64,000 nucleotides of DNA. It comes from Bacteroidota bacterium. Lineage in GTDB: Bacteria; Bacteroidota; Bacteroidia; UKL13-3. Position 1 is the stretch's first letter, and each line of letters opens with the position of its first letter. The translations under genes and the position numbers were made by a program. Location: the NCBI GenBank assembly GCA_027488905.1, contig JAIYAT010000019.1, forward strand, positions 1 through 64,000, in the 5' to 3' direction. Under the pieces are notes generated by a model that saw nothing but the letters and a program-made list of their open reading frames with translations, made no database searches and was not told the DNA's origin. This document shows positions 879 to 60,900 of the stretch, one piece after another.

Positions 879-3056
879 TTATTGCACCTTCATTAACTTC
901 CGAGTATAGCTTTCACTGCCATGTTGCAAGGCCATAAAATAAAGACCAGCAGGTAAGTCTTTTAAATTCATTTTATGACTGCCATTTTTCATAGGAATTA
1001 GTTCTTCGCTAAGAATCAATTCGCCAGTTATTTTATGAAGGCTTACAATTGTTTTTTCGCTTGTGCTGTAGTAAATGGTAAACTCGCTATTAAAAGGATT
1101 TGGTGCTATAGTAAATAAGGCCACTTCAAATTTTGGTTCAAGACTTATTATTTTTGAATAGTTAGCCATTCCATCAAAGTCTATTTGCCTCAATTGAAAG
1201 TATTGTGTGCCGATGAATCCATTCCTATTTTGCACTGAAAATGCATAAGCATTCAGTCTGTTTGAATTCCCTTTTCCAGCAATTGTTCCAATGGGTCTTA
1301 ACATTTCAATTGAGGTTCCATGCCAAATTTCGAAAGCTTTGTTATTAATTTCTTGCGCGGTTGTCCAGCTTAACTGAATGTCTTGTGCATTCTTTTGTTC
1401 GGCTGAAAACTTAAGATAAGTCACTGGCAGCGCCAATAAGGTTTGGCCCCCACTGATTACCAAAGAAAACTTTTGTGCGATATTATTTTGAAGAATTCCT
1501 TTATGTTTTACTTTTACTTTATACCAACCTGCTGCAAGATTTGTTTTAATAATTTGCTCCACATTGTCCCTAAAATTATCGCCTGTTGTGGCAGCCAAGG
1601 CAGGATTTGAAGGGTTTAACACAAAAGGCATTCCCACCAAAGAATCGTTTTGGGTAAGCAAGCGCATGTCTAAATCATTTACCAATTTCAAAGTAGTGTC
1701 ATTGTAAATGGGCGCAGCAGTAACGCCTTTGGGGTCTGTCCATACCAAAGTGCTTTTAAACGTATCTGTTGGGTTCAAGTATACAAATAGTTGAAAAGAA
1801 TCTTGGTTCTGTAAATTAACTTCAACTACCCTATTTTTCAAAGAATCTTTAAGGCATAAGGCAGCTTTGTTTAAATCTGGAATGCCCCAACCACATTCAT
1901 AATCTGGGCCAGGTAAATTTAGTTTGCACCTTCTTGCACTATGAATGGCTAAGGCCTTAAGGGTTGAGTTTAATAGGTAACTACCTTTGAGTTGGTGGTT
2001 ATATTGTTGCAACAAAAGCAAAGAGCCTGTTACATTGGGTGCAGCAATGGAAGTACCACCAAGGCCAGCATATGCTGAATCAGTGGCTGATCCCACAGAG
2101 ATAATATTTCCACTGGCAGCCACTAAATCTGGTTTAATTCTCCCATCATCAGTTGGGCCCCAAGTGCTAAAACTTAAGGTATTGATATTGCCTGTTGGTC
2201 CATTAGGCTGAACGGGAATGGCGCCTACACAAAGGATATTCTTTGCATTTCCAAAAGTAGAAATGCAATCATAAGGACCCACAGAATCACGGGTAGTTGT
2301 GCTCAAAGCCCAAGCCGTTCCATTCCAATAATAATGGGGTGTTCCAGGTGCAATACCTGCGCCGCGGTCGTTGCCACTTGCTTTAACCATTAAATAATAA
2401 GGATTGGCATACATTACACTGTCCCAAATTCTGCTGCGATTATCATAATAACCAAATTTCCAATCGCGTGTAGGATGTAAACTGCTATCGCCATACCAGT
2501 ACCATTGCCCACTGATATTGGTCCATGCAGCGGTGGTGGCATAGGAATGGTTAGATAAAAATAAATCTGGAGCGGCCGCAATGATTTCTGCATTATCACT
2601 TGTGAAATTCCAGTTCTTTAATTGTGCAGCAAAGCTCATTCCTCTGGCATTTGGTAATAATCCAGCAGCAATCATATTTCCAACCACTGCGGTAGTATGT
2701 GCACTTAAGGTGCCTCCAGAATCCATAATAATCACACGGCCTCCAAATTCTATATGAGAAGTTCGGGCCCTTCCCCCATCCCAAACGCCAAGTTTATTTA
2801 AGCCTGCTCCGCTTAGGTTCAAACCTAAACTACCGCTTGGCCATAAGGCATTTGTTTGGATTGTTTTTGCTGCGTCCAGGTTATTGCAAGTACAAAGGTA
2901 TTCGGGGATGTTATTATACCCCCAAGCATCCCACTCGCAGTATTTACCAGTGGAGTCTGTAAAATAACGAGGTGTTTTTTCATTAAAAACCCTTTGCCCT
3001 GAAAGTAGTTCAAGACAAAGGGTTTGAATTAATAAGACTGCAAATAGTCTTTTCAT
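879..3056 (-). CDS. Secreted subtilisin-like serine protease (S8) with T9SS type A C-terminal domain
   Basis: 725 residues with a signal peptide (about 1-20, ending LLSG/Q). A subtilase domain has Asp93 (GVWDGG), His120 (SAHTTAVVGN), oxyanion Asn229 (ASGND) and Ser336 (GGTSIAAPN), so the catalytic set is intact. A pro-protein-convertase-like beta domain (about 400-545) and a fibronectin-like stretch follow. The last 80 residues form a T9SS type A sorting domain with PNPF and GLYFMAL blocks. It is probably exported through the Por secretin and anchored or released at the surface; the substrate is unknown. The start codon directly abuts the stop of the TlpA gene upstream, so co-transcription is very likely. 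The cysteine-rich segment at 40-60 could be a target for that thioredoxin (inference). Confidence 0.9.
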   Translation of the reverse strand: MKRLFAVLLIQTLCLELLSGQRVFNEKTPRYFTDSTGKYCEWDAWGYNNIPEYLCTCNNLDAAKTIQTNALWPSGSLGLNLSGAGLNKLGVWDGGRARTSHIEFGGRVIIMDSGGTLSAHTTAVVGNMIAAGLLPNARGMSFAAQLKNWNFTSDNAEIIAAAPDLFLSNHSYATTAAWTNISGQWYWYGDSSLHPTRDWKFGYYDNRSRIWDSVMYANPYYLMVKASGNDRGAGIAPGTPHYYWNGTAWALSTTTRDSVGPYDCISTFGNAKNILCVGAIPVQPNGPTGNINTLSFSTWGPTDDGRIKPDLVAASGNIISVGSATDSAYAGLGGTSIAAPNVTGSLLLLQQYNHQLKGSYLLNSTLKALAIHSARRCKLNLPGPDYECGWGIPDLNKAALCLKDSLKNRVVEVNLQNQDSFQLFVYLNPTDTFKSTLVWTDPKGVTAAPIYNDTTLKLVNDLDMRLLTQNDSLVGMPFVLNPSNPALAATTGDNFRDNVEQIIKTNLAAGWYKVKVKHKGILQNNIAQKFSLVISGGQTLLALPVTYLKFSAEQKNAQDIQLSWTTAQEINNKAFEIWHGTSIEMLRPIGTIAGKGNSNRLNAYAFSVQNRNGFIGTQYFQLRQIDFDGMANYSKIISLEPKFEVALFTIAPNPFNSEFTIYYSTSEKTIVSLHKITGELILSEELIPMKNGSHKMNLKDLPAGLYFMALQHGSESYTRKLMKVQ

Positions 3057-3563: not shown

Positions 3564-3596
3564 GTTACTGTAATTGGTTTGTAAAAATAGACAAAA

Positions 3597-4583
3597 TTGG
3601 ATAAACAACATACAAAAGAACAAATAAACCTAATTGCGCTTTGGGCATTTTGCGAAAGTGGCCTTGGCGGCATTTTACATGCCATCAAACTTCCCTTTAC
3701 AGGATTTTTTGTGGGTGGGTTTGCTTGTATTATTCTCATGTTGCTGGCAGAGCAATTTAAACATAAACCATACCAAATACTCAAAGCCACTTTATTGGTG
3801 ATGTCTATAAAATTCATGGTAAGTCCGCAGGCCCCTTTACCAGCCTACATTGCTGTGGCTTTTCAGGGCTTATTTGCTTGGCTTGTGTTTGGTGTTTTGG
3901 GAAGAAATTTGCTCACTTGCATGCTGTTTGCGTCAATTGCTTTGCTAGAATCGGCCTTGCAAAAGTTTTTATTGGCAACTTTAATTTATGGCAAAAGTAT
4001 TTGGGAAGCTCTGGATTTATTTGTGATTGGGCTGCTAAAAGACTTTCACCTTAGTCAAAATTTTTCATTTAGCTATTGGCTATTTATTATTTACGCCTCG
4101 ATTTACTTTTTATGGGGATTATTTTTAGGGTATAAATCTTTTTTCCTCCCTCAAAGGCTTTTTAAGTTGGCAAGCATTTTACCTCGGTTTGAACCAAGCC
4201 CAGTTACAGCAAGCAAAAAGACAAAGAAGCTTTCTTTAAAATGGCTTAGCCTGCTGTTAACTATTGTATTCATTGGGATTACGTTTTGGCTTAGCGAGGG
4301 TACCATGCACAAAGGTTTATATGTATTTACTAGAACCCTTGTGGTGTTATTTGTACTACTTTTTATAGTGAATCCTTTATTGAGAATGTTGTTGCAGAAA
4401 ATGTCAAATAAGATGGCATCAGAAAGTCTTTTCGCTTTGGTGAGCGAGCAAATGCAGTATTTTACAGAAAGTGTTCAATCGGTTTGGCAATTTAGTGGAG
4501 GGAGCAAAAATCGCGTAGTAAGGGTTTGGTTTTTCATGGAACTGTTACTAGCCATCAGCCTTTATCCAACGGATGATAACTAA
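3597..4583 (+). CDS. Polytopic membrane protein of unknown function, paired with an NTPase/MobA-like fusion
   Basis: 328 residues, strongly hydrophobic, with about seven to eight predicted membrane segments: near 8-28, 32-52, 60-76, 85-105, 108-128, 155-176, 215-235 and 243-265. A soluble C-terminal tail follows. I do not recognise the family. The N-terminal half (GGILHAIKLP, FVGGFACIILML) has the feel of a small permease, such as the substrate-binding subunit of an ECF-type importer, but that is a guess. The start is a TTG at 3597; no in-frame ATG occurs for about 45 codons. It overlaps the downstream NTPase/MobA fusion by 11 bp, so the two are translationally coupled and probably act together. 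It is divergent from the TlpA gene with a 33 bp gap. Confidence 0.75.
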   Translation: MDKQHTKEQINLIALWAFCESGLGGILHAIKLPFTGFFVGGFACIILMLLAEQFKHKPYQILKATLLVMSIKFMVSPQAPLPAYIAVAFQGLFAWLVFGVLGRNLLTCMLFASIALLESALQKFLLATLIYGKSIWEALDLFVIGLLKDFHLSQNFSFSYWLFIIYASIYFLWGLFLGYKSFFLPQRLFKLASILPRFEPSPVTASKKTKKLSLKWLSLLLTIVFIGITFWLSEGTMHKGLYVFTRTLVVLFVLLFIVNPLLRMLLQKMSNKMASESLFALVSEQMQYFTESVQSVWQFSGGSKNRVVRVWFFMELLLAISLYPTDDN

Positions 4584-5667
4584 ATTTACCATCATTAGTG
4601 ACCCTATAAGGTCTGGTAAAACGAGTCGATTAATTCATTGGCTCAACCAACACCCGCAAGTGTTTGGGGTTTTAATGCCCGACTTAGCTGGAAAAAGGAA
4701 ATTATTCTTAAACACTTTAAACCTTGTTTTGCCTTTAGAGGTCTATGAGAAAGACTTTTCAGAATCAGAGTTGGTTCAAATAGGAAGATTTACTTTTCTA
4801 AAGCAGCCATTTCTATTGGCACAAGAACTGCTTTTAGATGCCATAAATCTTTCAACTAATGATATTGTAATCGATGAAATTGGGAAGTTAGAATTTAAAA
4901 ATAAGGCAGGGTTTGAACCTGGATTGAGCAAAGGTTTGATGACATTATCTTTAGAAAACAAGGATAGAAAATGTTATTTAGTGGTTAGAGATTATCTGCT
5001 GGAGGAAGCAATTTCATTTTACTCCTTACAAGAGTCTGAAGTAATTGGGAGTGAGCAATTGGTTGAGGTTATTCCTGCGCAGCCCATGGAAACTGTTGCG
5101 TTGGTTTTATGCGGCGGCGCAAGCCGCCGCATGAAGCAGCCCAAATCACTACTTTATTACCACGAGTTACCGCAGTACCTCTGGCTAAACCAGTTAATGC
5201 AACCCTTGGTAAATGACGTTTTTCTATCCTGCAAAAAAGAACAATCAGATTGGTTCGATACAAGCCTTAAACAAATTCATGATAATCCTAAGTATGCAGA
5301 TGCCGGTCCTTTAGCCGGTTTGTTATCCTTGTTAGAAACTAATATTACTTCTGCCATTTTAATCATTGGCTGCGACTATCCCCTATTGCCCAAAGAATAT
5401 ATGCAGCAACTTACAGAAGCTTGCCAATTATTTAATTGTACGGTAGCATTAAGCAAAAGTTTGGATGAGCCACTAGAACCCATGCTTTGCTGCATACATC
5501 CAAAAGATTTTAAAGCAATTCAAAATTTATACTTTGATAAAAAGGTAAACTCACTTAGTAAAGTACTTTTACAACTCAATGCTATTAAAATAGTTGTTGA
5601 GCATCCAAACAAGATTAAAAGCTTCGACACTCCAATGGAATTCAGCTCTTTCCAAACCTATCTCTAA
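4573..5667 (+). CDS. Fusion of THEP1-like NTPase and MobA-like nucleotidyltransferase
   Basis: 364 residues in two domains. Residues 1-165 resemble THEP1-type nucleotide triphosphatases, with a P-loop ending SGKT (14-17) and a Walker B-like DIVIDEIGKLE (97-107). The P-loop is degenerate, starting SDPIR rather than GxxG. Residues 175-364 resemble MobA, the molybdenum cofactor guanylyltransferase, with LCGGASRRM (179-187), GPLAG near 245 and GCDYPL with Asp268 as likely metal ligand. A P-loop domain joined to MobA recalls MobB-MobA fusions, but this P-loop domain reads as THEP1-like. No other cofactor genes are near, so the nucleotide acceptor is uncertain. The gene overlaps the membrane-protein gene upstream by 11 bp and the convergent protease gene by 4 bp. 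A perfect GC-rich hairpin lies inside the MobA glycine loop. Confidence 0.8.
   Translation: MITKFTIISDPIRSGKTSRLIHWLNQHPQVFGVLMPDLAGKRKLFLNTLNLVLPLEVYEKDFSESELVQIGRFTFLKQPFLLAQELLLDAINLSTNDIVIDEIGKLEFKNKAGFEPGLSKGLMTLSLENKDRKCYLVVRDYLLEEAISFYSLQESEVIGSEQLVEVIPAQPMETVALVLCGGASRRMKQPKSLLYYHELPQYLWLNQLMQPLVNDVFLSCKKEQSDWFDTSLKQIHDNPKYADAGPLAGLLSLLETNITSAILIIGCDYPLLPKEYMQQLTEACQLFNCTVALSKSLDEPLEPMLCCIHPKDFKAIQNLYFDKKVNSLSKVLLQLNAIKIVVEHPNKIKSFDTPMEFSSFQTYL
5109..5132. repeat. Perfect 10-bp inverted repeat with GCAA loop inside a CDS
   Basis: ATGCGGCGGC (5109-5118), loop GCAA (5119-5122), then the exact complement (5123-5132). It encodes the CGGASRRM nucleotide-binding loop of the MobA-like domain. 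It is far more GC-rich than its surroundings, and GCAA is a GNRA-type loop, so the mRNA would fold tightly here. It may be chance created by the coding constraint. Confidence 0.7.
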
Positions 5668-7049
5668 TCTACCAATAACTTTCTAACACTAACGCTTTCT
5701 GCCTGCTTGCAATAAACAAGGTATAATCCAGATTTATCAAACATTACCTGATGCAAACGTTTAGGTTCAAGCCGAAAACTTTGAATTAAGCTTCCTTGCA
5801 CATTCCTGATTTCAATTTCACAAGCTTCGTTGGCCTCCAAATTTACAAATTGGCTTCCCCCAGTAGGATTAGGAAATACCTTTAAAATATTTTGGGTTTC
5901 GGTTTGAACCAAACCGGAAGCGGTTTCTTTAGTATAAAAAGTATCAGAAGCACCAAAGCTTCCACAGGAATAGGCATTAGTAATTGCCTTTACACGCCAG
6001 GTGTATTCCCATGAGCCAAATAAATTTAAAACAGTAGTGGTATCATAAACCAGAACATCATGGTTTATAAAATTCCAATCGCCAAACCTTGCCACCTGCA
6101 AGTGATAAGCAAAAGCACCTGCCACTTTGCTCCAAGTAAAATTAACGGCGTTAGGGGAAATATTTGAGTCCAAATTTTGAGGAGAAACTAATTTAGGTGC
6201 AGGTAATTCTCTTATATCGGCAGTTAAGGTAGAAATACCTCTAGCAGCAACATTGGCTCGCATAGCAGCCATTTGCTCCTCACTAAACCTAGATTGACAT
6301 TGGTCTGAGGAATAGCTCATATAAATAGAACTATCGGGCTTAAAACTTGCTCCTGTTTGGTCTTTGAGTGTCCAAGGTAAAGGGCAACTCCAGCGCTGAC
6401 TTACATAATCTGCTTTGGTATCGCAAAACCCATCACCTGTATTCCTACAATTGGCGCCATCTAAGCGCTCCCAAACCCCAGGATCATTTCCACCCTCCCA
6501 ACCCGAAAAGGTATGTGGCAAACTAAAAAAATGCCCTAGTTCATGTGTTAAAGTGGTAGCAGTGCTTCCTTGACAAGAATTTTTAACAAAAACAACATCC
6601 ACCCCTGGAAAATATACACCACACCACTGCATGCCAGCGCCATGAAAGAATACATTAACAGCTCCATCTTTCTTATAATCTTCCGACCGAAACCAAATTG
6701 CATCGCTGTTTCCTGCATATAACTCATCATCATCTATATAGCTAATAGCCTCAGCAAAATAAAATTGCAGGCGAGCAGGAAGAAAATCCTCGTTTAAATC
6801 GCATAAAGCACGTAATAAAGAACTTACAGAATAATATCCTTTTCCTTCATTATTTCCAATAATGTGAAATTTAACAGGAACATAGGTAATCACCGCAGAT
6901 TGTGAAGGCAGTCCTTTAGTGTCAATTTCGCTTTGAAATTGGCGCAACCATTGCAATTGGTCTTGTGACAATTTTGTTGGACAATAGGTATTTTGGGCAT
7001 TTGCCCCAAAAGCTAATAAACTAAAAAGCAGTCCTATAAATGGTTTCAT
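5664..7049 (-). CDS. Secreted M43 (pappalysin/cytophagalysin-type) metalloprotease with T9SS type A domain
   Basis: 461 residues with a signal peptide (1-18, FGANA/Q). The zinc motif HELGHFFSLPH spans 169-179 (His169, Glu170, His173, His179), which fits the extended metzincin pattern. The downstream MSYSSDQC block would form the Met-turn and the M43 signature that includes RFSEEQMAAMR. A fibronectin type III-like domain (about 285-375) follows. A type A T9SS sorting domain starts at FPNPTGG and ends KLLVD. It is probably a secreted zinc endopeptidase that degrades extracellular protein. The gene stands alone, tail-to-tail with the NTPase/MobA fusion (4 bp overlap), and has its own probable promoter at 7061-7068. 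Confidence 0.9.
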   Translation of the reverse strand: MKPFIGLLFSLLAFGANAQNTYCPTKLSQDQLQWLRQFQSEIDTKGLPSQSAVITYVPVKFHIIGNNEGKGYYSVSSLLRALCDLNEDFLPARLQFYFAEAISYIDDDELYAGNSDAIWFRSEDYKKDGAVNVFFHGAGMQWCGVYFPGVDVVFVKNSCQGSTATTLTHELGHFFSLPHTFSGWEGGNDPGVWERLDGANCRNTGDGFCDTKADYVSQRWSCPLPWTLKDQTGASFKPDSSIYMSYSSDQCQSRFSEEQMAAMRANVAARGISTLTADIRELPAPKLVSPQNLDSNISPNAVNFTWSKVAGAFAYHLQVARFGDWNFINHDVLVYDTTTVLNLFGSWEYTWRVKAITNAYSCGSFGASDTFYTKETASGLVQTETQNILKVFPNPTGGSQFVNLEANEACEIEIRNVQGSLIQSFRLEPKRLHQVMFDKSGLYLVYCKQAESVSVRKLLVD

Positions 7050-8111: not shown

Positions 8112-8148
8112 TTTATCAGTTTTGAACCAAAACCAACAGTTTCGAAAA

Positions 8149-9108
8149 ATGATTACAAAAGACCTGCAATTGGCAATTGACCTTTTAATGGCTGGCAAAT
8201 TGGTTGCCATTCCAACCGAAACGGTATATGGCCTTGCAGCCAATGGGTTTAGTGGAGCAGCAGTTGCAGAAATTTTTCAGGCTAAAAATAGGCCACAGTT
8301 TAATCCATTAATTTTACACTCCAATTCCATAGCCCGATTTAAGGAATGGGGAATTGAAATCCCAGAAGAGGCCTTGTTATTGGCCGAAAAGTTTTCTCCG
8401 GGTCCAATTACCTTTGTTGTTCCAAAAAGCGAGTTGATTCCAGATCTCGTAACTGCTGGCCATAACAGTGTTGCCATAAGAATTCCTAATCATCCTTTAT
8501 CCTTAGAATTACTGCGCCAACTTCCCTTTCCATTGGCAGCGCCAAGTGCCAACAAATCGGGAAGTATTAGCCCAACCCAAGCAAAAGATGTAGAAGATCA
8601 ATTTGGAGATGAAATAGCAGCTGTTTTGGAGGGTGGACCTTGTGCGATAGGATTAGAATCTACCATAATTTCATTTATGGGAAATCACCCAAAACTATTG
8701 CGTTTAGGAGGCTTAAGTTTGGAAGCAATCGAAGAAATCCTAGGTAAGTCTTTGGATCAAACCAAACTCATAAATAATGAAAACCCAGAGGCACCAGGTA
8801 TGCTAAGTAGGCACTATGCTCCAATAACACCCTTGTATATTAACGCGGCTAGTTTGCATTTGACAGAGGCTAAGTTCTCCGAAATGGTTTATATAGGATT
8901 TAAGCTTCCGCATACTCAAATACCCTTAAGTAATCAGATTTTATTATCAAGTGCTGGCAATTATGCAGAGGCTGCGCAGAACTTATTTGGAGCGCTAAGG
9001 CAGGCCGATAAAATGCAACATAAAATAATTATAGCCGATTTATTACCCGAAGAAAATTTAGGTAGAGCAATTAATGACCGATTGAGAAGAGCAGCTGTAA
9101 AACAATAA
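8149..9108 (+). CDS. tsaC: Threonylcarbamoyl-AMP synthase, Sua5 type
   Basis: Makes threonylcarbamoyl-AMP from threonine, bicarbonate and ATP for the t6A37 modification of ANN-decoding tRNAs. With the ATG at 8149 it has 319 residues. The frame opens at a TTG at 8122, but the nine extra residues (NQNQQFRK) are not family-like. Residues about 5-195 form the YrdC/Sua5 core: PTETVYGLA, KNRPQFNPL and APSANKSGSISPT supply the ATP and substrate pocket. The remainder is the Sua5-specific C-terminal domain, joined by the APGMLSRHYAP linker. That makes it the long Sua5 form rather than short TsaC. The stop codon lies inside the stem of the downstream terminator. Confidence 0.92.
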   Translation: MITKDLQLAIDLLMAGKLVAIPTETVYGLAANGFSGAAVAEIFQAKNRPQFNPLILHSNSIARFKEWGIEIPEEALLLAEKFSPGPITFVVPKSELIPDLVTAGHNSVAIRIPNHPLSLELLRQLPFPLAAPSANKSGSISPTQAKDVEDQFGDEIAAVLEGGPCAIGLESTIISFMGNHPKLLRLGGLSLEAIEEILGKSLDQTKLINNENPEAPGMLSRHYAPITPLYINAASLHLTEAKFSEMVYIGFKLPHTQIPLSNQILLSSAGNYAEAAQNLFGALRQADKMQHKIIIADLLPEENLGRAINDRLRRAAVKQ

Positions 9109-9159: not shown

Positions 9160-12100
9160 CTATTCCTTAACCAATCTAAGCACTTTAAGTGTATCTCCCA
9201 TGCTTATCTTTATAAAGTACACACCACTTGCAAGTTCACTAAGTTCTGAAACATTTACAGTTGCTTGTGCAGCTTTTTCAATTTGCTTTAAAATTCTTCC
9301 ATTTACATCCAACACTTGAATTTCAATGGTTTCGGTTTGAACCGAACTCAAAGTAATTGTAAAGTTCGCAGTATATGGATTTGGATACAACCCTACAGCT
9401 AACGCTAATGCAGTTTCTTGCCCTACAATTCTAACTTCAGAGTAAGTAGTTGTACCATCAAAATCAACTTGGTTCAAACGGTAGAACAATTGGTCTGAAT
9501 TTGTATTTTCAAATGCGTTTCGGTCAGAGAAATTATAAGAAATAAGTGCTTTAGAATTTCCTTTTCCTTTAATAAAACCAATGGTCTCAAATTTCACTCC
9601 ATCTATTGAACGCTCAATATAGAATCCTTTATTGTTTGATTCACTAGCAGTCTTCCAGCTTAATTTTACATCTTCTTGTACCTTATTGGCAGTAAAAGCG
9701 AGCATCTCTACAGGTAAAGGATTAGAATTACCATCTGTTCCTGTGAATATTCCAAAAGCATTTTGAGAGGCAACGGTTGATAAGGTTCCATTGATACCAT
9801 TTCCAGTTGAGCTGGCTATCAAGTTCCAAGCTGTATCATAACGTGCTACCTTAGAAGTGCTTATGCTTGCTACAGTGCCAAGGGTAGCCGAATCTGCCAA
9901 AACATTCATTGTATAATTATACCCTGTTCCGCCAGTTGCAGAAACCTCATAATATGCATTGTAACGCGTTCTGCCTGCAATTAGATTTGGTGCATTTTCG
10001 CCACTGTAATACCTAATGGCAACTGCACTTGGAACAGTTCCAACATTACCCCAAGTAAGGCTAGCAATTTGTTTTCCACCAAAAGTATAAGTAGTAGTGT
10101 TGCCTAAGGTAGGCGCTGCATTTGCAGTTGCTAAAGGTGGCAAAGTTGAAGTTGTAAATTCATTGGAACCAATATCTGTTGCTCCATTTGCAATAGAAGT
10201 TGAACGGGTATTGTTGTTAAAGTCATTTGATACCGCTGTTAAAGCAAGACCTTTTCCGTTGACATACCATGCATTGGCGTTTGAGTTAACAATGTTTAAA
10301 TTAGAAACTAGCGTGTCATTAAAGATTGTTGCAGCAGGAATAGCAGAAGCTAACATATACCAATTTGAAGGATATGCACCAGCACCAGAATAAAGCGTAT
10401 TAAATAAACTAACACTATTGGTAAAGTTTATAGGAGCTTCTGCAATTCTATTGGTATCATTAACTACTATTAGATTATAATTTACGGTATTGGCGGCAAC
10501 CCCAGTAAGCGAGTTTGAACCAAATGCAAAGCCAGCACCAGTTCCTAAAGTTGAACGTTTATTATATAAAATATTGTTAAGACTAACCACATTGGCTAAG
10601 CCCGTGCGTTGAATGCAATATGAGTTGTTTGTGCCACCAGAAAGTAAACCGTTAATAAAAATTGAATTGTTATAATAAAGGTTGTTTCCAGAGCTAGCAA
10701 CATCTTGTATACCATAAACACGTGTTTCGCCGATAGTATTATTACCAATGCTTATTTGGTTGTTTCTCACATTTACCCCACCAGTACTTGAAACATACAT
10801 ACCAAAAACTTGGTTAGAACTTGTTCCAATTCCTGTACCAGTGCCATAAACAGTATGGATTCTATTACGTAAAACAGAAGTGTTTGTTCCACCGATAACA
10901 TTTATTCCAACGGCTGTATATGCTCCTGCACCTCCATTAATGTTAAAAATATTAAATACCGTGTTTTGTTCAATTACATGGTTGGCACCTCCACTAATAT
11001 GCATTCCAGTGATTAAAAAAGTAAAGGCAGTTCCACTAGAATTACCTTTAATATCTCTAATTGTATTACCGGTAATAGTGGCGGTTCCGCCAGAAACAGT
11101 GATGCCACTCGTTCTGTCTCCAAATCCATCGTAGTAAGAAATATTGCCAATGGTATTGTTAACAATAGAAACTGTTCCTCCTGTAACATTAATAATTCCA
11201 TTGTCAAAACCATTTTGTACAGTATCATATGGCATGGCACCACCGCCGATAGTGTTATTGGCAATGGTAACATTGCCTGCCGAAATATTAATTAAATGAA
11301 CGGCACTAATACTGGCAATATTAGAAAAAGTATTATTGATAATTTGAGCCGTTGTAGCTGCATTGTTAATTCTTATTGCAGTAATATTTGGATTGGTTGC
11401 ATTAGTTGTTGTTAATGCTGCTCCGCTTCTATTAGGAGCCGAACCACCCATGCTATTTCCATTAAAAACATGTCCTGTTCCACCATCAATTTGAAAAGCT
11501 ATAATAGGATTTGCTTTTACAATGATTTGATAGAAACTATTGTTAGAAAAATTCCAAAAATCACCAGCGGTAATGGCCAAATTAGCAAGAGCGAAGCCAT
11601 GGTTAAATACCTCATTATTGGCAAATGTATTATAATCATTGCCTATACCAGCAGTACCTTGGCTTTGAAGTGCAGTATTAGGAATCTGACCTGTAGAAGG
11701 GTTGCCTAATGTATCTCTTATAACACAATTGATAACCGCATTTGAATCGTTTCCAAAACCTCCAACCACATTTGTCGTGCCAAAAAGGACTGTACCTACA
11801 GCTTGATCTGTTCCTTCAATAAAACAGTTTCTAACCGTATCTAATTTTGCATCGTTTTGAAATCTAAATGTTGCGTTAGGGATAAAAGTGGTATTAAATG
11901 CTCTATTTCTAAATCTTAAAAATCTACCACTTCCTCCAAAGCTTCCATCTATTAATACTCTATCAGCACCATTTAGTCTTATTAAACCTCCTAAATCACC
12001 AGCACCCTGAACATTGCCTACAATCAATCTTTCAGTAGTTCCATCAGGTACAATCCTAAAGGTGTAATTTCCTGCGCCTGTTTCGTTAATTTGGTTAATA

Positions 12101-40028: not shown

Positions 40029-40044
40029 TGGAGAAAATAAATAC

Positions 40045-40054
40045 GGTTTGAACC
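40045..40054 (+). repeat. Copy of the GGTTTGAACC motif overlapping a start codon
   Basis: The exact 10-mer straddles the inferred TTG start (40048-40050) of the SBBP-repeat gene. It is the only one of the 20 copies that reaches outside a coding sequence. It could affect initiation there, or be incidental. Confidence 0.6.
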
Positions 40055-50199: not shown

Positions 50200-51468
50200 A
50201 TGAAAAATAGATATTTTAGTTTTAAAACAATGCTTTTAGGTGCCCTATTTACGACACAGTGCCTTGAACAAAGTAATGCTCAAATTGCAGGATCCAATTC
50301 CCAGTTAGATGGAAGGCAAAATACCATAACTACAGCTGTTCCTTTTTTAATGATTACGCCTGAAGCTAGAGGCGGTGGAATGGGAGATGTAGGCGTGGCC
50401 ACACCAAACGACCCATATGCAATGCACTGGAACATTTCTAAGTTACCTTTTAATGACAAAAAAGGTTCTGTGGGTTTATCCTATACACCATGGCTAAGGA
50501 GCTTAGTTCCAGATATTTCATTGACTTATTTAACTGGTTATGCAAAAGTAAATGATCGCTCTGCTGTAGCTGGTTCATTGCGCTATTTTTCGATGGGTCA
50601 AATTAATTTTACAGACCAATTTGGCCAAGGAACAGGTGATTATACCCCAAATGAATTTGCCATAGATATTGGTTACGCCTCTAAACTTTCAGACTATTTT
50701 TCTTTAGGTATTGCTATGCGATACATTCGTTCTGACTTAGCTGGTGCCTTAAACCGCTCCCAAAATGATGTAAAGGCAGGTAATGCCTTTGCTGGTGATA
50801 TCACTGCATATTATAAAAATAAAACAAAAATTAAGTTAGAAGGAAAAAAGTATACGCTTAACTATGGCATTGGCGCTGCTGCCACAAATATTGGTTCAAA
50901 AATTAGCTACACTTCTAAAATAAATGAAAACTTTATTCCAATTAACCTAAGAGTAGGCGGGTATGCACAAGTAGAAATAGACCAATACAATACACTTGCA
51001 ATAGCTTTAGACTTTAACAAATTATTGGTGCCTTCAAATCCAGTTTATAAAAGAGATTCGCTTGGTGATTTTGTGTATGACAATGATGATAACCTAATCA
51101 TAGAAAGAGGTAAAGACCCAAATCCTCCAGTGATACAAGGAATGTTACAGTCTTTTAATGACGCGCCAAATGGCTTTAGAGAAGAAATGGAAGAAATAAA
51201 CATTTCTTTGGGTCTGGAATATTGGTACGACAAACAGTTTGCGTTAAGGTCTGGATTTTTTTATGAACCTGAATCTAAAGGGAACAGAAAATACTTAACC
51301 TTTGGTGCTGGATTCAGATTTAATGTCTTTGGTTTAGACCTTTCTTATCTAGTGCCAATTGAACAAAGAAATCCGCTTGAAAGAACGATAAGATTCTCGA
51401 TGTTATTCGACTTAGATGCATTTGTGACTCAGAATGAAGAGGACAAAAAAGCACCAATTAACAATTAA
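50200..51468 (+). CDS. porV: T9SS outer-membrane shuttle PorV
   Basis: 422 residues from the ATG at 50200; an open frame begins at 50155, but those codons overlap the promoter. Signal peptide (about 1-27, QSNA/Q). A beta-barrel of the FadL/OmpP1-like type follows: AVPFLMITPEARGGGMGDVG is the family hallmark, followed by AMHWNISKLPF, GSLRYFSMGQINFT, GIAMRYIRSDLAGAL and the ending LSYLVPIEQRNPLERTIRFS. PorV takes sorting-domain cargo from the SprA translocon to PorU. It is needed for type A cargo in particular. It follows porU by 46 bp, and ispF follows 2 bp after it. Confidence 0.93.
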   Translation: MKNRYFSFKTMLLGALFTTQCLEQSNAQIAGSNSQLDGRQNTITTAVPFLMITPEARGGGMGDVGVATPNDPYAMHWNISKLPFNDKKGSVGLSYTPWLRSLVPDISLTYLTGYAKVNDRSAVAGSLRYFSMGQINFTDQFGQGTGDYTPNEFAIDIGYASKLSDYFSLGIAMRYIRSDLAGALNRSQNDVKAGNAFAGDITAYYKNKTKIKLEGKKYTLNYGIGAAATNIGSKISYTSKINENFIPINLRVGGYAQVEIDQYNTLAIALDFNKLLVPSNPVYKRDSLGDFVYDNDDNLIIERGKDPNPPVIQGMLQSFNDAPNGFREEMEEINISLGLEYWYDKQFALRSGFFYEPESKGNRKYLTFGAGFRFNVFGLDLSYLVPIEQRNPLERTIRFSMLFDLDAFVTQNEEDKKAPINN

Positions 51469-51470
51469 TA

Positions 51471-51969: not shown

Positions 51970-54900
51970 ATGTCGGGTAAAAATTACACAGAAAAATACA
52001 AAGAGATTTATCAAAATCTTAACCAACAACAAAAGTTAGCGGTTGACCAAATTGATGGACCTGTGATGGTGCTTGCAGGACCAGGAACGGGGAAAACACA
52101 AATTCTTGCTGCAAGAATTGCGAACATACTTTTGCAAACGGATAATAATCCAGAGAATATTCTTTGCTTAACCTATACAGAGGCAGGAACGGTTGCCATG
52201 CGCAAGCGTTTACAAAGCTTTATTGGACCAGATGCTTACAGGGTTCAAATTGCAACGTTTCATGCATTTTGCAACCTAGTTATACAAGAAAACTTAGACT
52301 ACTTTGGATACCGCAACTTAGACCCTATCAGTCAATTGGAAGAGGTGCAATTCTTAAGAGCACTTATAGATGGCTTGCCTAAAAATCATATTCTTAAAAG
52401 ATACACAGGTGAGGTATATTTTGAAATAAACAGACTTAAAGATTTGTTTAGTGTAATGAAAAAGGAGGATTGGGAGCCCGCATTCCTGCTAGAAAAAATA
52501 GAATTGTATTGCAAAGATTTGCCTTTAAGAGAGGAGTATTTTTATAAAAAGAAAACTACCAATAAAAAAGACGGAAAAACCTATGCACCTGGAGATTTAA
52601 AAACGGACAAGATAAATGAAGAACTTCGAAAAATGGAGTTGCTCAAAGCAGGTGTAAATTTATTTGAACCCTATCAAAACTTACTCCTCAAAAATTTCAG
52701 GTACGACTTTAGCGATATGATTTTATGGGTTTTAAAAGCCTTTAGAAAAGAACCAGCAATGCTTGCAAATTATCAAGAAAAGTACCAATACATTTTAGTG
52801 GATGAATTTCAAGATACGAGCGGTTCTCAAAATGACTTGTTGCAAGAATTGATATCTTATTGGGATTCGCCAAACATTTTTGCAGTGGGTGATGACGACC
52901 AAAGTATTTACAGGTTTCAAGGAGCAAGTGTGGCCAATATAGAATTATTCATAAAGCAGTTTGGTTCGAACCTAAACCTTGTGACACTTGAAGAAAATTA
53001 CAGGTCGACACCACACATTCTAACTGCTGCAGAAACCTTAATTCAAAATAACAGCCAAAGGATAAACCAAAGTAAACATTTAGTGGCCTCAAACCCGCAT
53101 AGATTGATTGGTTCAAACCGACCAAAAATAAAAAAATACTACCACCAAATACATGAAAGTGCTGCCATTTGCGATGAAATTGTAAAACATAGAGATGCAG
53201 GGCAAGCCATGAACGAAATTGCAATTATATATAGAAAACACAGCCAAGCCGACGAGATGTTGCAATATTTAAAATGGAAGCAAATTGAAGTGAATACACG
53301 AAAGAGAATCAATATTCTTGAGGAACCAATAATTAAAAAGCTTCTACTTTTGATGCGCTATCTGGTGGCAGAAAGTAAACATGCACATAGCGGAGAATCC
53401 TACCTTTTTGAAATTTTACATTTTCAGGAATTTAATTTAGACACACAAGAGATTGCAAAATTATCTTTAGCCATAGCAAGAACTAATTTTAATGAACGGC
53501 AAACTAATTGGCGAGAGGAATTGAAAATATTGGCTCGTCCAAAAAAAGCAGATTTATTTAGTCAAGGAGAACTTGGTAATAATTTCGGGAAATTTATTCA
53601 AACAATTGAGTATTTAATTTCATTTAGTTTGAACCAAACCGCCCAAGAAACATTACATACTGTAATTAGAGAATGTGGTTTATTGGGTTCTGCTTTAAGC
53701 AATAATGAACGCAACTGGCAAATGGAAGTACTTCAAACTTTCTTTGATTTCATTAAGCAAGAATGCAGCAAAAAACCTGGCCATAATCTAATGAGTTTAC
53801 TTGAACTTTTAGACCTTATGCTGCAAGACCATATAGATTTACCAGCAGAAAAAGTTTGGTATGCAAACAATGGTATAAATTTTATCACTGCGCATTCAGC
53901 AAAAGGGTTAGAATTTGATTATGTATATATGATTGGCTGTGATAGTAAATCATGGGACAAGGCACAAACAAATAGAGGATTTAAATTGCCAGATAATTTA
54001 TTTACCATTACAGCAGATGAAGCAGAAGAAGCAAGGCGCTTATTTTATGTGGGCATTACAAGGGCACGAAGGCAATTAGAGCTCAGTTACTGTGCATTTG
54101 AATTGAACCAAAAAGAGCTAGAACCTTCGCGTTTCTTAGCAGAATTGCTAGAAAAAGAATCGGTTGAAGAAACAAGCATTCCATTTGAGGAAAGCATAGT
54201 TGCAAACTATTTACAACATGCCTATCCAGAAGCAGAAGCTGGCATTCCGGCATCTATTATTGACAACGCTTTTACAGATTCTATTCTTGAAAAATATAGT
54301 TTAAGTGTTACCCATTTAAACACCTATTTAAAATGTCCAGTTAGTTTTTATTTCAATAATTTCATACGAGTTCCCGCTCCCAAAAGTGCAAGCATGACAT
54401 TTGGTTCAGCCATTCATTTTGCGCTTGAACAATTGTTTAAAAAGATGAATTTAGACCCAGAAAAATCATTTGGTGGAACAGAACAAATTGTGAATGATTT
54501 TAAATGGTATATGAAACGAAACAAAGACAGTTTTACAGAACCTGAATTCAAAAGAAGAATAGAATATGGTGAAACCATCTTACCTGCATATTATAATGAA
54601 TATGCTGCAAGTTGGAATAAAATCACTAGTGTTGAAAAGCCATACAGAAATGTAGTAGTAAAAGGAATACCACTCAATGGAAAACTAGATAAACTAGAGT
54701 TTACAGGGAATTTAGTGGATGTGATAGATTACAAAACAGGCTCTTATAAAAATGCAAAAGACAAATTTAAGCGTCCTAATCAAGAAGCCGTTGAAATAGC
54801 TATAGCAAAAGGAAAAGAACCTTCATTTGAAGATGTTCATGGAGGTGATTATTGGCGTCAGGCGGTATTCTATAAATTACTAATGGATTATGATGTTCAA

Positions 54901-55191
54901 AAGAACTGGGAAATGCAAAAAAGCATTTTTGATTTTGTTGAACCCATAGCAAGTGCAGGTGACAAAGGGGTAACAGCTTATACCTTTCATAAAGAAACAA
55001 TTACCATCTTACCAGAAGATTTAGAAATTGTTTCCAAGCAAATTCAAGACACCTTCCAAAGCATTCAAAACAAGGAGTTCAAAAATGGCTGTAATAAAGA
55101 CGATTGTCATTGGTGTAATTTTGTTAAAAACTACTATAATGGAAAAGTCTTAGATAGCAAAATTGGGTTGATAGAACAGGAAGAGGATTAG
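51970..55191 (+). CDS. UvrD/PcrA-like helicase fused to iron-sulfur PD-(D/E)XK nuclease
   Basis: 1073 residues. Helicase motifs: I, AGPGTGKT (near 37); II, LVDEFQDTS; III, GDDDQSIYRFQGA; IV, LEENYRS; V, TAHSAKGLEFDYVY; VI, YVGITRARR. The C-terminal third is a RecB/AddB-like nuclease, with DYKTG and the QAVFYKLLMDY helix. Cys789 (LKCPVS) together with Cys1041, Cys1046 and Cys1049 (C-x4-C-x2-C) fits the AddB-type iron-sulfur clasp. It probably processes double-strand DNA ends as a single-chain helicase-nuclease. A related protein family is known in this phylum. No AddA or RecC partner is adjacent. It overlaps the convergent coiled-coil gene by 4 bp. Confidence 0.9.
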   Translation: MSGKNYTEKYKEIYQNLNQQQKLAVDQIDGPVMVLAGPGTGKTQILAARIANILLQTDNNPENILCLTYTEAGTVAMRKRLQSFIGPDAYRVQIATFHAFCNLVIQENLDYFGYRNLDPISQLEEVQFLRALIDGLPKNHILKRYTGEVYFEINRLKDLFSVMKKEDWEPAFLLEKIELYCKDLPLREEYFYKKKTTNKKDGKTYAPGDLKTDKINEELRKMELLKAGVNLFEPYQNLLLKNFRYDFSDMILWVLKAFRKEPAMLANYQEKYQYILVDEFQDTSGSQNDLLQELISYWDSPNIFAVGDDDQSIYRFQGASVANIELFIKQFGSNLNLVTLEENYRSTPHILTAAETLIQNNSQRINQSKHLVASNPHRLIGSNRPKIKKYYHQIHESAAICDEIVKHRDAGQAMNEIAIIYRKHSQADEMLQYLKWKQIEVNTRKRINILEEPIIKKLLLLMRYLVAESKHAHSGESYLFEILHFQEFNLDTQEIAKLSLAIARTNFNERQTNWREELKILARPKKADLFSQGELGNNFGKFIQTIEYLISFSLNQTAQETLHTVIRECGLLGSALSNNERNWQMEVLQTFFDFIKQECSKKPGHNLMSLLELLDLMLQDHIDLPAEKVWYANNGINFITAHSAKGLEFDYVYMIGCDSKSWDKAQTNRGFKLPDNLFTITADEAEEARRLFYVGITRARRQLELSYCAFELNQKELEPSRFLAELLEKESVEETSIPFEESIVANYLQHAYPEAEAGIPASIIDNAFTDSILEKYSLSVTHLNTYLKCPVSFYFNNFIRVPAPKSASMTFGSAIHFALEQLFKKMNLDPEKSFGGTEQIVNDFKWYMKRNKDSFTEPEFKRRIEYGETILPAYYNEYAASWNKITSVEKPYRNVVVKGIPLNGKLDKLEFTGNLVDVIDYKTGSYKNAKDKFKRPNQEAVEIAIAKGKEPSFEDVHGGDYWRQAVFYKLLMDYDVQKNWEMQKSIFDFVEPIASAGDKGVTAYTFHKETITILPEDLEIVSKQIQDTFQSIQNKEFKNGCNKDDCHWCNFVKNYYNGKVLDSKIGLIEQEED
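52963..52972. repeat. Fully palindromic variant of the iterated 10-mer
   Basis: GGTTCGAACC, the only exactly palindromic copy, 147 bp from an exact GGTTCAAACC at 53110. It lies in the helicase-nuclease gene and encodes GSN. Confidence 0.7.
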
Positions 55192-55559
55192 GCAAGGAAC
55201 TCATCAAAATCTCTTTCCAACTCTACAAACAATTCAAGAAACCGATTGAATTGGTCTCTTAAATTTACATGTGTTAATAGCAATAAATGTGCGGGTTGAT
55301 CCAATTGTTGAAGATGGTTTTCATGTTGTTTGATTTCATGCCTTAACTCATCAATCACTTCTCTTTGACGGATGAACCTATTCTGAAAAGATTCAACTTG
55401 AGGCATTAACCTAGCTTTGGTAAACTCCTTTAAACCATCTTGCAATTGCAATTCTAGCGCTTTAAAATACATTTTGGTACTATCTAATTTAGCTAGCCAA
55501 CCAATGTGTTCTGTAAGAAATAAATCTTGGGTAATTTCAGTTGCCATAGTGGTAATCAT
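55188..55559 (-). CDS. Small coiled-coil protein of unknown function
   Basis: 123 residues, no signal peptide, Glu/Gln/Leu-rich and almost all helical: LEFQ-type heptads run from about 30 to 115 (FQNRFIRQREVIDELRHEIK, HENHLQQLDQ). Start is Met1 (55559), or Met5 (55547) with MATEITQDLF. It is convergent with the helicase-nuclease gene (4 bp overlap) and divergent from fumC. I do not recognise it. A cytoplasmic structural or adaptor role is possible. Confidence 0.65.
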   Translation of the reverse strand: MITTMATEITQDLFLTEHIGWLAKLDSTKMYFKALELQLQDGLKEFTKARLMPQVESFQNRFIRQREVIDELRHEIKQHENHLQQLDQPAHLLLLTHVNLRDQFNRFLELFVELERDFDEFLA

Positions 55560-57091: not shown

Positions 57092-57117
57092 TTTAAAAGA
57101 TTATAACTTGCGGTAGT

Positions 57118-57789
57118 ATGCATTTACCAAATTTATTTCTGCAAGGCGCAATTACAGGCCTGCTCTTAACCATGTCGTTTGGAGCAGGCTTTTTCGCATT
57201 GGTTCAAACCAGCATTACAAAAGGGCTACAAAAAGGCCTAATGATTGCACTTGGAGCAATTTTAAGTGACATCATTTTTATAGGAATCTCAATATTTGCT
57301 ACTTCAATTGTAAATGAAGAGCTTCCTAAGTATAGTGAAGCAATTCGCTGGATAGGTTTATTTACCTTCTTAGCTTTAGGTATAAGAACCATTATCAAAT
57401 CAAGTAAAATTGTATCTGGTTCAGAACAAGGAAATCGACCATTGTATTATTATATAACAAAGGGATTTTTATTAAATATCATCAATCCTCTAGTTTTGCT
57501 AACATGGCTAGGCATAAGTCTATACCTGCAATCTACACTTAGGTACAATAGCCAAGAAACACTCATTTTCTTTAGTGCAACCATGCTTGCAACCTTTGCT
57601 TCTCAGGCAGCTATTTGTATTTTTTCTAACAAGATTAAAGGCTATTTATCTGAGAAGTTTTTACATAAAATGAATATTGTTATTGGGGTATTATTTATAA
57701 TAATAGGAATTGGACTATTTATAGGAATTGGTGGTCAAACATCAGATAAGGTTCAAACTACAAAAAAAATATTTGACAGTTTGAATTAA
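57118..57789 (+). CDS. LysE/RhtB-family exporter
   Basis: 223 residues with six membrane helices: near 8-28, 40-62, 70-90, 112-138, 148-170 and 185-205. The N-terminal GFFALVQTSITKGLQKG region and GFLLNIINPLVLLTWLG (family motif NPK/L) mark a LysE-type amino-acid or small-metabolite exporter. The substrate is not predictable. It follows fumC by 26 bp on the same strand. It ends about 60 bp before a strong bidirectional terminator. Confidence 0.85.
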   Translation: MHLPNLFLQGAITGLLLTMSFGAGFFALVQTSITKGLQKGLMIALGAILSDIIFIGISIFATSIVNEELPKYSEAIRWIGLFTFLALGIRTIIKSSKIVSGSEQGNRPLYYYITKGFLLNIINPLVLLTWLGISLYLQSTLRYNSQETLIFFSATMLATFASQAAICIFSNKIKGYLSEKFLHKMNIVIGVLFIIIGIGLFIGIGGQTSDKVQTTKKIFDSLN

Positions 57790-57847
57790 AAAAATTAAGA
57801 GCAGATAGAATAAACTATACCAAAGACTCAGTTAAGCATTATACAAA

Positions 57848-57881: not shown

Positions 57882-57902
57882 GTATTAGCTATTTATTAAT
57901 AC

Positions 57903-60900
57903 CTATTGTTTTATCATTTGTTGGTAAACTGATTTACCATCAATTTCAACTTTAATCATATAGGCACCAGCAGCGCCAAAGTAGGTTTCATCTAGGTAAA
58001 CTTCACGCTGTCCAGCATTCACTTTTCCTAAATTATTTACTTTGATTGCTCTTCCTAACATATCAAGTGTAGTAATCTTAACTGTTGCACTACTTGGTAG
58101 TTCAAAGCCTAAGTTAGTTCCATTGTTAAATGGATTAGGATAAGCAGTTAAACTATAGTGAGAAGCAAGTGCATCTTCATTACCTACATTACAATAGATG
58201 TAAACACTGTAATTATCAACGGTAGAACATCCACTTTCATCTTTAATTGTGAGTTTAACATTATAGGTTGAACTATCTCTAAATACAAACTCTATTGGAT
58301 TACCAATTTTGATGGTATTTAACTTATCACCCATTTCCCACTTGTATTCTGCATTTAGTACAGAAGCGGTTAAACGTCTACTATTAAAGCAATAACCATA
58401 TTGGCTTGCATTTAAAGTATCCATGGTAATCGTGTTCTCTTGTGGTAGATTTATGATGATACTTTTTTCTACAGTATCCTTACATCCACTAGCTGTTGTG
58501 ATAACTAACTTAGGTGTATAACCACCATGAACAGTATAAACTCTTGTTGTTAAGTTACAAATGGTATCAGTTTTGCCATCACCCCAAATCCACTCACATT
58601 TAAACTGTTCGCCATCGATAGTATAAGAAGTGTTTACAAAATTAAGTGGATTGTTTTCACAACCAAAGTCTGGCATACCAAAACCTGCATTAGGTTTACG
58701 ATTAACATCAAGATTAATGCCTAATGAATCACGACAACCATTTACTTTATCTACAGCAAGCAAAGTAACACGCAATGGAGAGAAATCATCTGTTGGTGAA
58801 ACGTATTGGTAAGTTGGATTAATTTGGGTAGATGTTCCGAAGTTATCTCCAAAATTCCATGTGTAATTAACATTAGATTGACCACCTGTAAAGACTGTAG
58901 TATTGTTAAACTTGGTAGCATCACCTACACAAGGGTTTTCAATATTGAAACCTACATTTGGTTTATCGTAAACGGTTACAGCTCTAACAATTGAATCAAT
59001 ACATCCAAAAGCAGAACTTACGCGCAATTTAGCGTTGAACGTACCACTTTGAGGATATTTATAGGTAGGGTTTGCACTTAAACTTGTTTGACCATTACCC
59101 CAATCCCATGTATAACCCATTACACCTGTTGGAATAGTACTTGAGTTAGTTATTGGTACGTTAAGACCTCTACAATGTGCCAACGAACTAAATGAGGCAG
59201 CAGGTTTTGCGAATATGTAAACGTTTTTACTTGCATCAGTAAAGCAACCAGAAGAGTTGGTTACTCTTACTCTAACGTTATAGGCAGTGTCAAACTTAAC
59301 ATATCTAAACTTGGCTACCTCTCTACCTTGCGTTGTAAAATTATGGAAAGACCATACAAAATTAGAACCTGCAGGCTGAGTTGAAGGTGTGAAAACAGTT
59401 GAATCTGTAGCACAAGGATTAGTTACAGTGAAATCTACTATTGGCGAAGGCAAAATAGTTATTTGTTGCACTTGCTCTGAAGATAAGCCAAACCTATCAG
59501 TTATGGTGTATCTAACAGTGTAAGTTCCAGGATTTTGATATAACTTAGGTTGTGGAACTTCTTCTGTTGAGAAAGTACCATCACCATAATTAAAAGTAAA
59601 TGTAAAAGGAAATCCATTAGCAGGTTTAGGATTAGAACATAAACCAGAGAACTGAATTGGATTACGAGCACACTGGTTAGCAGATGGTGTTATTGTAAAA
59701 CAAGCATTTGCTTTTGTAACAATTCTTAAAACTCTTGTTACAGTGGTATCACAATTAGAACCATTCAATCTAAATCCAAAATTGAATACAATGTTACTGT
59801 CTAAATAAGCTGCTTGTGTAATGTATCTAACAAAACCATTTGAAGATGGTGTAGGTGGAACATAAACAAAATTGGTTAACGGTAATAAAGAACCCTCTCT
59901 GTAAGCATTGATTTGAGTAATAGACCAAAGTGAACCAAAGTTTGCATTGGTATAGAAAGAAGGAGGAATAATACTATAAGTAATTGTATCTCCAATTTTA
60001 GAACCATCAGGACCATTTGAAGTACCGCTATTAAATGAGCCATTAAAAGGCAATCCAGGCTGAATTAAAGGATTGGTATTATATCTATTGATAATGGCTA
60101 CAACTGTATCAGGCATAACGTTTCTACAAACAGTTAAACCACCGCCGAAACCTGTGAAATTAGCTGCAGAAGTAAGATTACTAGCTTCAACAGCAAACCT
60201 TAAAGTATCTGCATTCTGAGGCACATTAACTCCCATTTGTATGGTTTGATCCAATCCGCCCTTTTCTCCAAGTGTGAAACCTGTTCCTAATTGGAATGCA
60301 CGGTAAATATATCTGCTATCCGAATTATTCAAGGTTAATTGAATAGAGTCTCTATAGCAATGATTCAATAATTTTGGTGTAAAGTTCTGTGCTTGAACAT
60401 CATCATAAATTGTGATATCGTCAATTTGAATGTTTTGGCCAGTACCTGAAGAGAAACCTTCAAAAGAAATTCTAATACCATCTTGACGGTGCTCAGCTAA
60501 ACAAACTTCAATCATCCTGTAACCTGGAAGAGGGAATGCTGTATTAACGCGTTCAACACCTTTCAAAGGATTTGACCAAATATCATTTCCATAAGAAACA
60601 GAAATTTGAATTGAGTCACGCTTATTTGGTAAATCACTGTTTTGAGAAATATAGAAGCGCAAAGTAGGGCTCTTAAGATTGCTTAAATCCAAACAAGGTG
60701 AGATTAACCTAGCACTTGCACCTGCAGCCATTGTAGATGAACGGAACAATGCTGAACGAATTCCTCCTGGTCTTGCAGCTTGAGGTGGGTTAAGGTTTGA
60801 ACCAGCTACACCTATTTCCCAAGCTCCGTTTCCATTAGTTGTTTTGCTAGCCCAAATAGGATTATTTACACCTTCAAAACCATTTGTATAAGGGAACGTC

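Follow-up and report, generated by a model that had tools for sequence, protein, structure and literature searches.

Genomes are known or suspected to become filled with a short word in three ways: through biased uptake of DNA, through repair linked to methylation, and through signals for recombination or segregation. To our knowledge, classical sharp words for the uptake of self DNA are found in only two bacterial families. These are the DNA uptake sequences (DUS) of the Neisseriaceae and the uptake signal sequences (USS) of the Pasteurellaceae, and both systems use type IV pilus parts. A Neisseria genome is about 2.2 Mb in length, and the maintenance of highly iterated palindrome 1 (HIP1) of cyanobacteria has stayed unexplained. 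Neisseria genomes are described as carrying "almost 1,500" DUS each (PMC2346458), and a methyltransferase is reported to accompany HIP sequences in cyanobacteria (PMC4390886). Among the Bacteroidota, Riemerella is naturally competent, and the cited portion of one account detects no pilus homologues and proposes novel machinery (PMC8459023). Riemerella columbina prefers its own DNA, and in the cited portion of that study no uptake word is established and A-rich k-mers top the published table (PMC7965970). Here we describe a word that is repeated in a stretch of 64,000 nt of Bacteroidota DNA (positions 1-64,000 of contig JAIYAT010000019.1; the window), taken from a source genome (G000) of 3.55 Mb in 40 contigs. 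The word has the core GGTTYRAACC. It is a real, strong and genus-limited recognition word at the level of DNA, and is not a HIP1-type palindrome in the source genome. Among the papers listed in searches of the open-access literature, none came up that describes an uptake word for Bacteroidota or reports the present motif, in agreement with a remark of the first-pass annotation.

There are ten copies of GGTTTGAACC, nine of GGTTCAAACC and one of GGTTCGAACC in the window, spanning positions 2816-60803, and this recount is identical to the 19 exact copies plus one GGTTCGAACC given before. Markov models fitted to the window itself, with both orientations of the 10-mer taken together, predict 0.15 copies at order 1, 0.35 at order 3 and 1.62 at order 5. 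The excess extends to the whole genome, where GGTTYRAACC occurs 880 times and the same pattern read backwards, which serves as the control for genome-wide word counts, occurs 61 times. Similarly, there are 3,015 copies of TNGGTTCA (1494 forward and 1521 reverse) versus 884 of its reversed pattern. Thus, the claim that the count lies far above chance is borne out. One-mismatch sites had been said to be fewer than exact ones, but there are 23 distinct sites of this kind in the window (GGTTCGAACC included) versus 19 exact. The mismatches cluster at particular positions, as seen in 426 kb of the source genome from which all statistics on fine structure, coding and spacing are drawn, and this indicates a wider motif that is degenerate in its right half.

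The consensus is approximately TTTGGTTCAAACCGAAA, or about 17 bp, and is composed of a strict half, T.GG.TCA, and a looser mirror half, AAACCGAAA, with weak A-richness slightly beyond. When 104 exact sites are oriented by their CA centre, T at position -2 is present in 94% whereas its mirror A at +11 is present in 66%. In the same sites T(-1) reaches 59%, G(+10) 57%, and A at +11 to +13 58-66%. Single-base variants are rare at G0, G1, T3, C4, A5 and A6 (3-11 each versus 104 exact) and commoner at T2, A7, C8 and C9 (26-34 each). A weight matrix, for which one strand was chosen per site, finds 448 sites versus 60 on the reversed sequence, a density of about one per kb. Its columns read T(-2) 96%, G 100%, G 99%, T2 75%, T 99%, C 98% and A 98%, followed by a weaker AAACC and then by A-rich positions to about +18. 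The element is therefore an asymmetric recognition word that is near-palindromic in its core only. The earlier description as a near-palindrome stands for the core, but not for the oriented flanks and the mismatch pattern, which are asymmetric, nor for the length, which is greater. A resemblance to the T-arm of tRNA, whose consensus is GGTTCRANYCC, was taken as coincidence because the strict positions differ, with T(-2) nearly fixed and T(+2) loose in the word described here.

Copies of the word arise and are preserved at the level of DNA, even where the protein has no need of them. In a relative of 77% identity (G007; 178 kb compared), T.GG.TCA is kept at 131 of 241 sites (54%). The controls were 180 patterns that permute the letters of T.GG.TCA, and the 178 used against this genome average 20% with a maximum of 49%, which places the word at rank 1 of 179; one pattern had been dropped for having fewer than 15 aligned sites. 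In a closer relative of 95% identity (G014), 259 of 291 sites are kept, where controls average 71% and reach at most 87% (rank 1 of 180). Of 320 synonymous third positions within the strict word, 239 match G007, where the behaviour of the same codons outside the word predicts 153.8 (z 10.3); within TNGGTTCAAACC 114 of 119 match, versus 59.7 predicted (z 10.7). The largest z among 40 control patterns is 2.66. The same synonymous test against G014 gives z 5.0, with a control maximum of 1.8. Of 1,324 words that are one base off in G007, 54 (4.1%) are exact in the source genome, a 2.7-fold excess over the controls, which average 1.5% and reach at most 3.3%. Conversely, 78 of 209 exact words of G007 are no longer exact in the source genome (37%; controls mean 80%, minimum 48%), so that loss is about half as frequent. 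With gain above the controls and loss below them, copies are therefore both acquired and retained by something that reads DNA. The earlier proposal is thus supported in that a sharp, highly iterated element is maintained at the level of DNA.

All 19 genomes of the genus carry GGTTYRAACC in excess, with 109-1,424 copies or 5.3-25.9 times the reversed pattern. One of these members, G005, is the metagenome-assembled genome Bacteroidia bacterium Tobar12.5m-G26 (contig JAIOYZ010000013.1). The 45 relatives from 13 other genera of the same family have 6-67 copies, and the order contributes no genomes beyond these same 64. In a sample of 295 genomes of the class, the 284 from other families have at most 51 copies, although a few of these show an even lower count for the reversed pattern (for example 30 versus 0 and 36 versus 5). 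The word is also near background in 79 other public loci (1.15 Mb), with 136 copies of TNGGTTCA versus 107 of the control and three of GGTTYRAACC. Thus, enrichment of the word extends across the whole of one genus but not to the relatives of that genus, and the versions of the word differ between species. After TNGGTTC, the source genome has A 394 times and G 29 times, G011 has A 19 and G 27, and G015 has A 14 and G 17. After TNGGTTCA, the source genome has A 290 and G 46, G001 has A 64 and G 58, and G009 has A 13 and G 18; in G001 and G009, G beside A marks a second version. The samples for G009, G011 and G015 are small (26-46 kb each). In G011, G015 and G016, TNGGTTCA is only 1.4-1.6-fold over control, overlapping some relatives, and for G011 and G015 this weak excess is explained by G following TNGGTTC at least as often as A. 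The centres in G011 and G015 are mostly the true palindrome GGTTCGAACC (4 of 5 in 46 kb and 5 of 8 in 40 kb). A phage origin was considered and set aside: a scan of viral contigs for TNGGTTCAAACCGAAA found 52 stretches, none with more than one match, and these hits are presumably due to chance. A second repeated word, around GACAGGTCGCGACC, occurs ten times in 200 kb of another genus member (L106-L115, G001:C9) and is possibly a local repeat array.

Coding sequences are not avoided. By a simple longest-open-reading-frame caller, used with no annotation, 407 of 448 sites are located inside predicted reading frames and 41 are non-coding, in sequence that is 91% coding (8.8% non-coding). All six classes of frame and orientation are populated, although unevenly, with 116, 72, 35, 81, 95 and 8 sites, which upholds the view that sites fall in unrelated genes and in different frames. 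Spacing is near random, with a mean of 871 bp and a coefficient of variation of 0.95. Even orientation had also been claimed, and clear strand polarity is indeed lacking: in addition to the 1494 and 1521 copies on the two strands of the genome, sites divide 199:190 relative to the GC skew of 20-kb stretches, our proxy for the direction of replication. Pooled over four genomes the division is 442:386 (p 0.056). The strong polarity toward the terminus that is typical of FtsK orienting polar sequences (KOPS) was found by this proxy neither in the source genome nor in the four-genome pool, and a KOPS reading was rejected. An element acting at the RNA level is likewise unlikely, in that the bias toward the gene strand is not strong (223 same and 184 opposite, p 0.059).

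This lack of clear polarity disfavours both segregation signals and words of the Chi type. Biased uptake, however, fits the asymmetric motif with its strict core, the density, the lack of clear polarity, the limits of the genus and the species versions. We therefore consider an uptake signal to be the best-supported mechanism among the readings, and put the chance that the word works in this way at about even. During uptake, the word may serve the cells as a label that identifies DNA of their own kind. Perhaps a surface or periplasmic DNA receptor of the genus binds the word and favours the import of word-bearing DNA, and the imported DNA of kin would then recombine into the chromosome. Copies might accumulate and be repaired through molecular drive, selection or both. 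Such a process would be expected to leave numerous copies close to the consensus, to favour neither strand, and to produce dialects that change as the receptor changes. All 19 genus members encode ComEC. Because no convincing type IV pilus ATPase was found, we propose that uptake would bypass pili and lead to ComEC, along the lines suggested for Riemerella. An uptake word that operates without pili is thus a possibility. The fuller proposal, for which we judge the chances to be a little short of even, is that this would be the first uptake-signal word of Bacteroidota, part of a self-DNA recognition system that arose independently of those of Neisseria and Haemophilus, needs no type IV pili, and has diverged into dialects among the species of a single genus.

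Several observations weigh against this proposal. ComEC is also present in 44 of 45 relatives that lack the word. The pilus ATPase family PF00437 has no match in the source genome, though it is found in 14 of 14 control genomes. At E 0.001 it is matched in 10 of 19 genus members, but nine of these matches are below the cut-off, and the only one above it covers 54 residues and comes from G001, whose assembly is 8% contaminated. No receptor gene for the word was found in our analysis. In the 426 kb there are few close inverted pairs of the word, and concentration of copies at gene ends was looked for and is absent. Density is not lower in DNA that may have been acquired. A 9.1-kb segment unmatched in the fetched stretches of G014, the only segment on which density in DNA specific to the source genome was judged, holds 12 copies of T.GG.TCA, a density equal to the 1.35 per kb of shared DNA, and the fifth of genes with the least typical codon use has 1.33 sites per kb versus 0.78 in the most typical. 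The longest word-free stretch is 6.9 kb (L024 4259-11143) and includes a HipA-like gene. The second-longest, L018 13616-18214, which is cut by the end of the sequence read, has a defence-like TIR-STING effector and an AAA_13 protein. The third and fourth, however, carry ordinary genes, such as those for a universal stress protein and an amidase.

The uptake reading has to be weighed against other ways of maintaining such a word. A HIP1-like cause, as suggested by the first-pass annotation, would involve a genus-wide orphan DNA methyltransferase that modifies part of the word, with methyl-directed repair or another methylation-linked process making and maintaining the copies. High density, no clear polarity, mostly genic sites, genus-wide occurrence and differing versions are shared with HIP1 and the alternate HIPs (PMC4390886), and the palindromic centres of G011 and G015 are also as this cause would have it. 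However, the motif of the source genome is asymmetric and longer than a HIP1-like palindrome, and no methyltransferase common to 19 of 19 genomes was found among families PF01555, PF00145, PF02086 and PF07669, a search that did not take in HsdM-type PF02384. Matches over the cut-off are present in 6, 6 and 7 of 19 genomes for PF01555, PF00145 and PF02086, respectively. PF07669 is matched at E 0.001 in 18 of 19 among the matches listed, several of them weak. G018, which has 487 copies and is 96% complete, yields one sub-threshold match over all four families, while the source genome itself matches PF00145 and PF07669. These results lower the standing of a HIP-like cause, which we now regard as unlikely, and the palindrome reading does not survive for the source genome. 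A near-palindrome with one strong and one weak half-site is also the architecture that might be expected if the word were bound by a chromosome-organising or nucleoid protein particular to this genus, acting as an asymmetric or dimeric binder at about one site per kb. The near-random spread and the conservation at DNA level agree with this possibility, but ParB, Noc and MatP, the known organisers, have far fewer sites than words of the one-per-kb type, and no candidate protein turned up, although no systematic search was made. It seems distinctly unlikely.

Chi-type words are dense, are conserved from species to species and come in versions particular to a lineage, and all three traits fit the proposal that the word regulates an end-resection nuclease of the RecBCD or AddAB type and is enriched to protect and recombine own DNA. 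Furthermore, a UvrD-helicase/PDDEXK nuclease is encoded in the window (51970-55191), and the strand count pooled over four genomes is slightly uneven. However, the Chi words that have been studied well show a strand bias, whereas the division in the source genome is nearly even by a measure, GC skew, that is only a proxy for replication direction, and a near-palindromic word is poor at signalling direction. This makes a Chi-like role decidedly improbable. The copies could instead be a by-product of a preference for codon pairs or protein repeats, of mutation bias, or of small dispersed mobile repeats. Most sites are indeed genic and reading frames are used unevenly. Nevertheless, all six frame-orientation classes are present, the flanks add nothing informative outside the motif, synonymous positions are more conserved than in the same codons at other places, and the excess persists against Markov models to order 5. 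Two outcomes had been named in advance as undoing the case for a DNA-level word, a count close to the Markov expectation and a single codon-pair preference, and neither accounts for these data. An origin in codon pairs or composition is ruled out by the Markov expectations, the spread over frames and the synonymous conservation. A by-product of any of these kinds is scarcely credible.

The copies in the window, called at a threshold of at least 13 bits, number 55, versus 3 in the reversed-sequence control, and 36 of them are variants beyond the exact-core set.

Table. Copies of the word in the 64,000-nt window, with strand and basis of the call.
Feature	Position	Strand	Basis
Exact GGTTCAAACC core	2813..2829	+	21.5 bits
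Exact core	4182..4198	-	20.3 bits
Exact core, C at strict -2, not among sites of at least 13 bits	4906..4922	-	core count and matrix
Perfect consensus TTTGGTTCAAACCGAAA	5897..5913	-	25.0 bits
Exact core	9330..9346	-	core count and matrix
Exact core	17547..17563	-	core count and matrix
Perfect consensus	20545..20561	-	core count and matrix
Exact core	25499..25515	+	core count and matrix
Exact core	27762..27778	+	core count and matrix
Exact core	28656..28672	+	core count and matrix
Exact core	31018..31034	+	core count and matrix
Exact core	32134..32150	-	core count and matrix
Exact core	39039..39055	+	core count and matrix
Exact core	40041..40057	-	core count and matrix
Exact core	40326..40342	-	core count and matrix
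Exact core	47706..47722	+	core count and matrix
CG centre (GGTTCGAACC)	52960..52976	+	core count and matrix
Exact core	53107..53123	+	core count and matrix
Exact core	57198..57214	+	core count and matrix
Exact core	60790..60806	-	core count and matrix
Variant	1132..1148	+	matrix, at least 13 bits
Variant	4637..4653	+	matrix, at least 13 bits
Variant	5761..5777	+	matrix, at least 13 bits
Variant	8115..8131	-	matrix, at least 13 bits
Variant	8751..8767	+	matrix, at least 13 bits
Variant	9468..9484	+	matrix, at least 13 bits
Variant	10508..10524	-	matrix, at least 13 bits
Variant	12524..12540	+	matrix, at least 13 bits
Variant	14100..14116	-	matrix, at least 13 bits
Variant	15018..15034	-	matrix, at least 13 bits
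Variant	15068..15084	-	matrix, at least 13 bits
Variant	15674..15690	-	matrix, at least 13 bits
Variant	18710..18726	+	matrix, at least 13 bits
Variant	20656..20672	+	matrix, at least 13 bits
Variant	20871..20887	+	matrix, at least 13 bits
Variant	21697..21713	+	matrix, at least 13 bits
Variant	21813..21829	-	matrix, at least 13 bits
Variant	22392..22408	+	matrix, at least 13 bits
Variant	23395..23411	-	matrix, at least 13 bits
Variant	23538..23554	-	matrix, at least 13 bits
Variant	27459..27475	+	matrix, at least 13 bits
Variant	28278..28294	-	matrix, at least 13 bits
Variant	28836..28852	-	matrix, at least 13 bits
Variant	31549..31565	-	matrix, at least 13 bits
Variant	40732..40748	-	matrix, at least 13 bits
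Variant	41875..41891	+	matrix, at least 13 bits
Variant	44855..44871	+	matrix, at least 13 bits
Variant	46706..46722	-	matrix, at least 13 bits
Variant	50890..50906	+	matrix, at least 13 bits
Variant	53622..53638	-	matrix, at least 13 bits
Variant	54400..54416	+	matrix, at least 13 bits
Variant	54931..54947	-	matrix, at least 13 bits
Variant	55289..55305	-	matrix, at least 13 bits
Variant	60239..60255	-	matrix, at least 13 bits
Variant	62102..62118	+	matrix, at least 13 bits
Variant	62302..62318	-	matrix, at least 13 bits

Several other features of the window and of related records are as follows. The UvrD-helicase/PDDEXK gene, which we take to be AddA-like, contains five copies, and the single GGTTCGAACC of the window is one of these. 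A reading frame of 3,018 codons on the minus strand (9160-18216) is unmatched in the fetched stretches of the approximately 95% identical G014 and has a normal word density. Proteins encoded at 879-3056 and 40048-42852 carry type IX secretion sorting domains (Por_Secre_tail, CHU_C), which, like the best matches of the fumarase, point to Bacteroidota as the phylum. A fumarase in Pasteurellaceae records (Rodentibacter, Nicoletella; L076, L079, L095) is 72-74% identical to the Bacteroidota protein of the source genome, which suggests gene transfer between these groups.

If the uptake reading is true, this would be a third case of an uptake word, in a distant phylum with no recognisable pilus ATPase, and the evolution of uptake specificity could be tested by comparison. 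It would also point to an unknown DNA receptor and supply a tag that could be used at once to transform these bacteria. Should the word serve methylation or chromosome organisation instead, it would still add a clear new example of a sequence maintained at the level of DNA at thousands of sites.

Chi sites are abundant, lineage-specific short words, and the genus word is likewise abundant, lineage-specific and short, but has no clear strand polarity. Like HIP1 and the alternate HIPs of cyanobacteria (PMC4390886), it is highly iterated, has a near-palindromic core and occurs in other versions in some lineages. It differs in being asymmetric, and none of the four searched methyltransferase families is found in all members. 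R. columbina is also a member of the Bacteroidota, has no reported pilus homologues and prefers its own DNA in competition, although no sharp word is described there in the cited portion of the study (PMC7965970). The USS of Pasteurellaceae is similarly a non-palindromic word with hundreds to thousands of copies, whose distribution in H. influenzae is reported as apparently random (PMC2346458). Its sequence is different, its proposed receptor is a pilus component (PMC12616744), and the genus word has no gene-end bias. The DUS of Neisseriaceae (PMC3630211) has another sequence and belongs to another phylum, whereas here the uptake specificity is putative, no convincing type IV pilus ATPase is present and close inverted pairs are few. 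The likeness is nevertheless extensive: both are words of 10-12 bp with thousands of copies, both are restricted to a lineage, and both form species dialects around a shared core. The 3,015 copies of TNGGTTCA in 3.55 Mb are of the order of the number of DUS in Neisseria.

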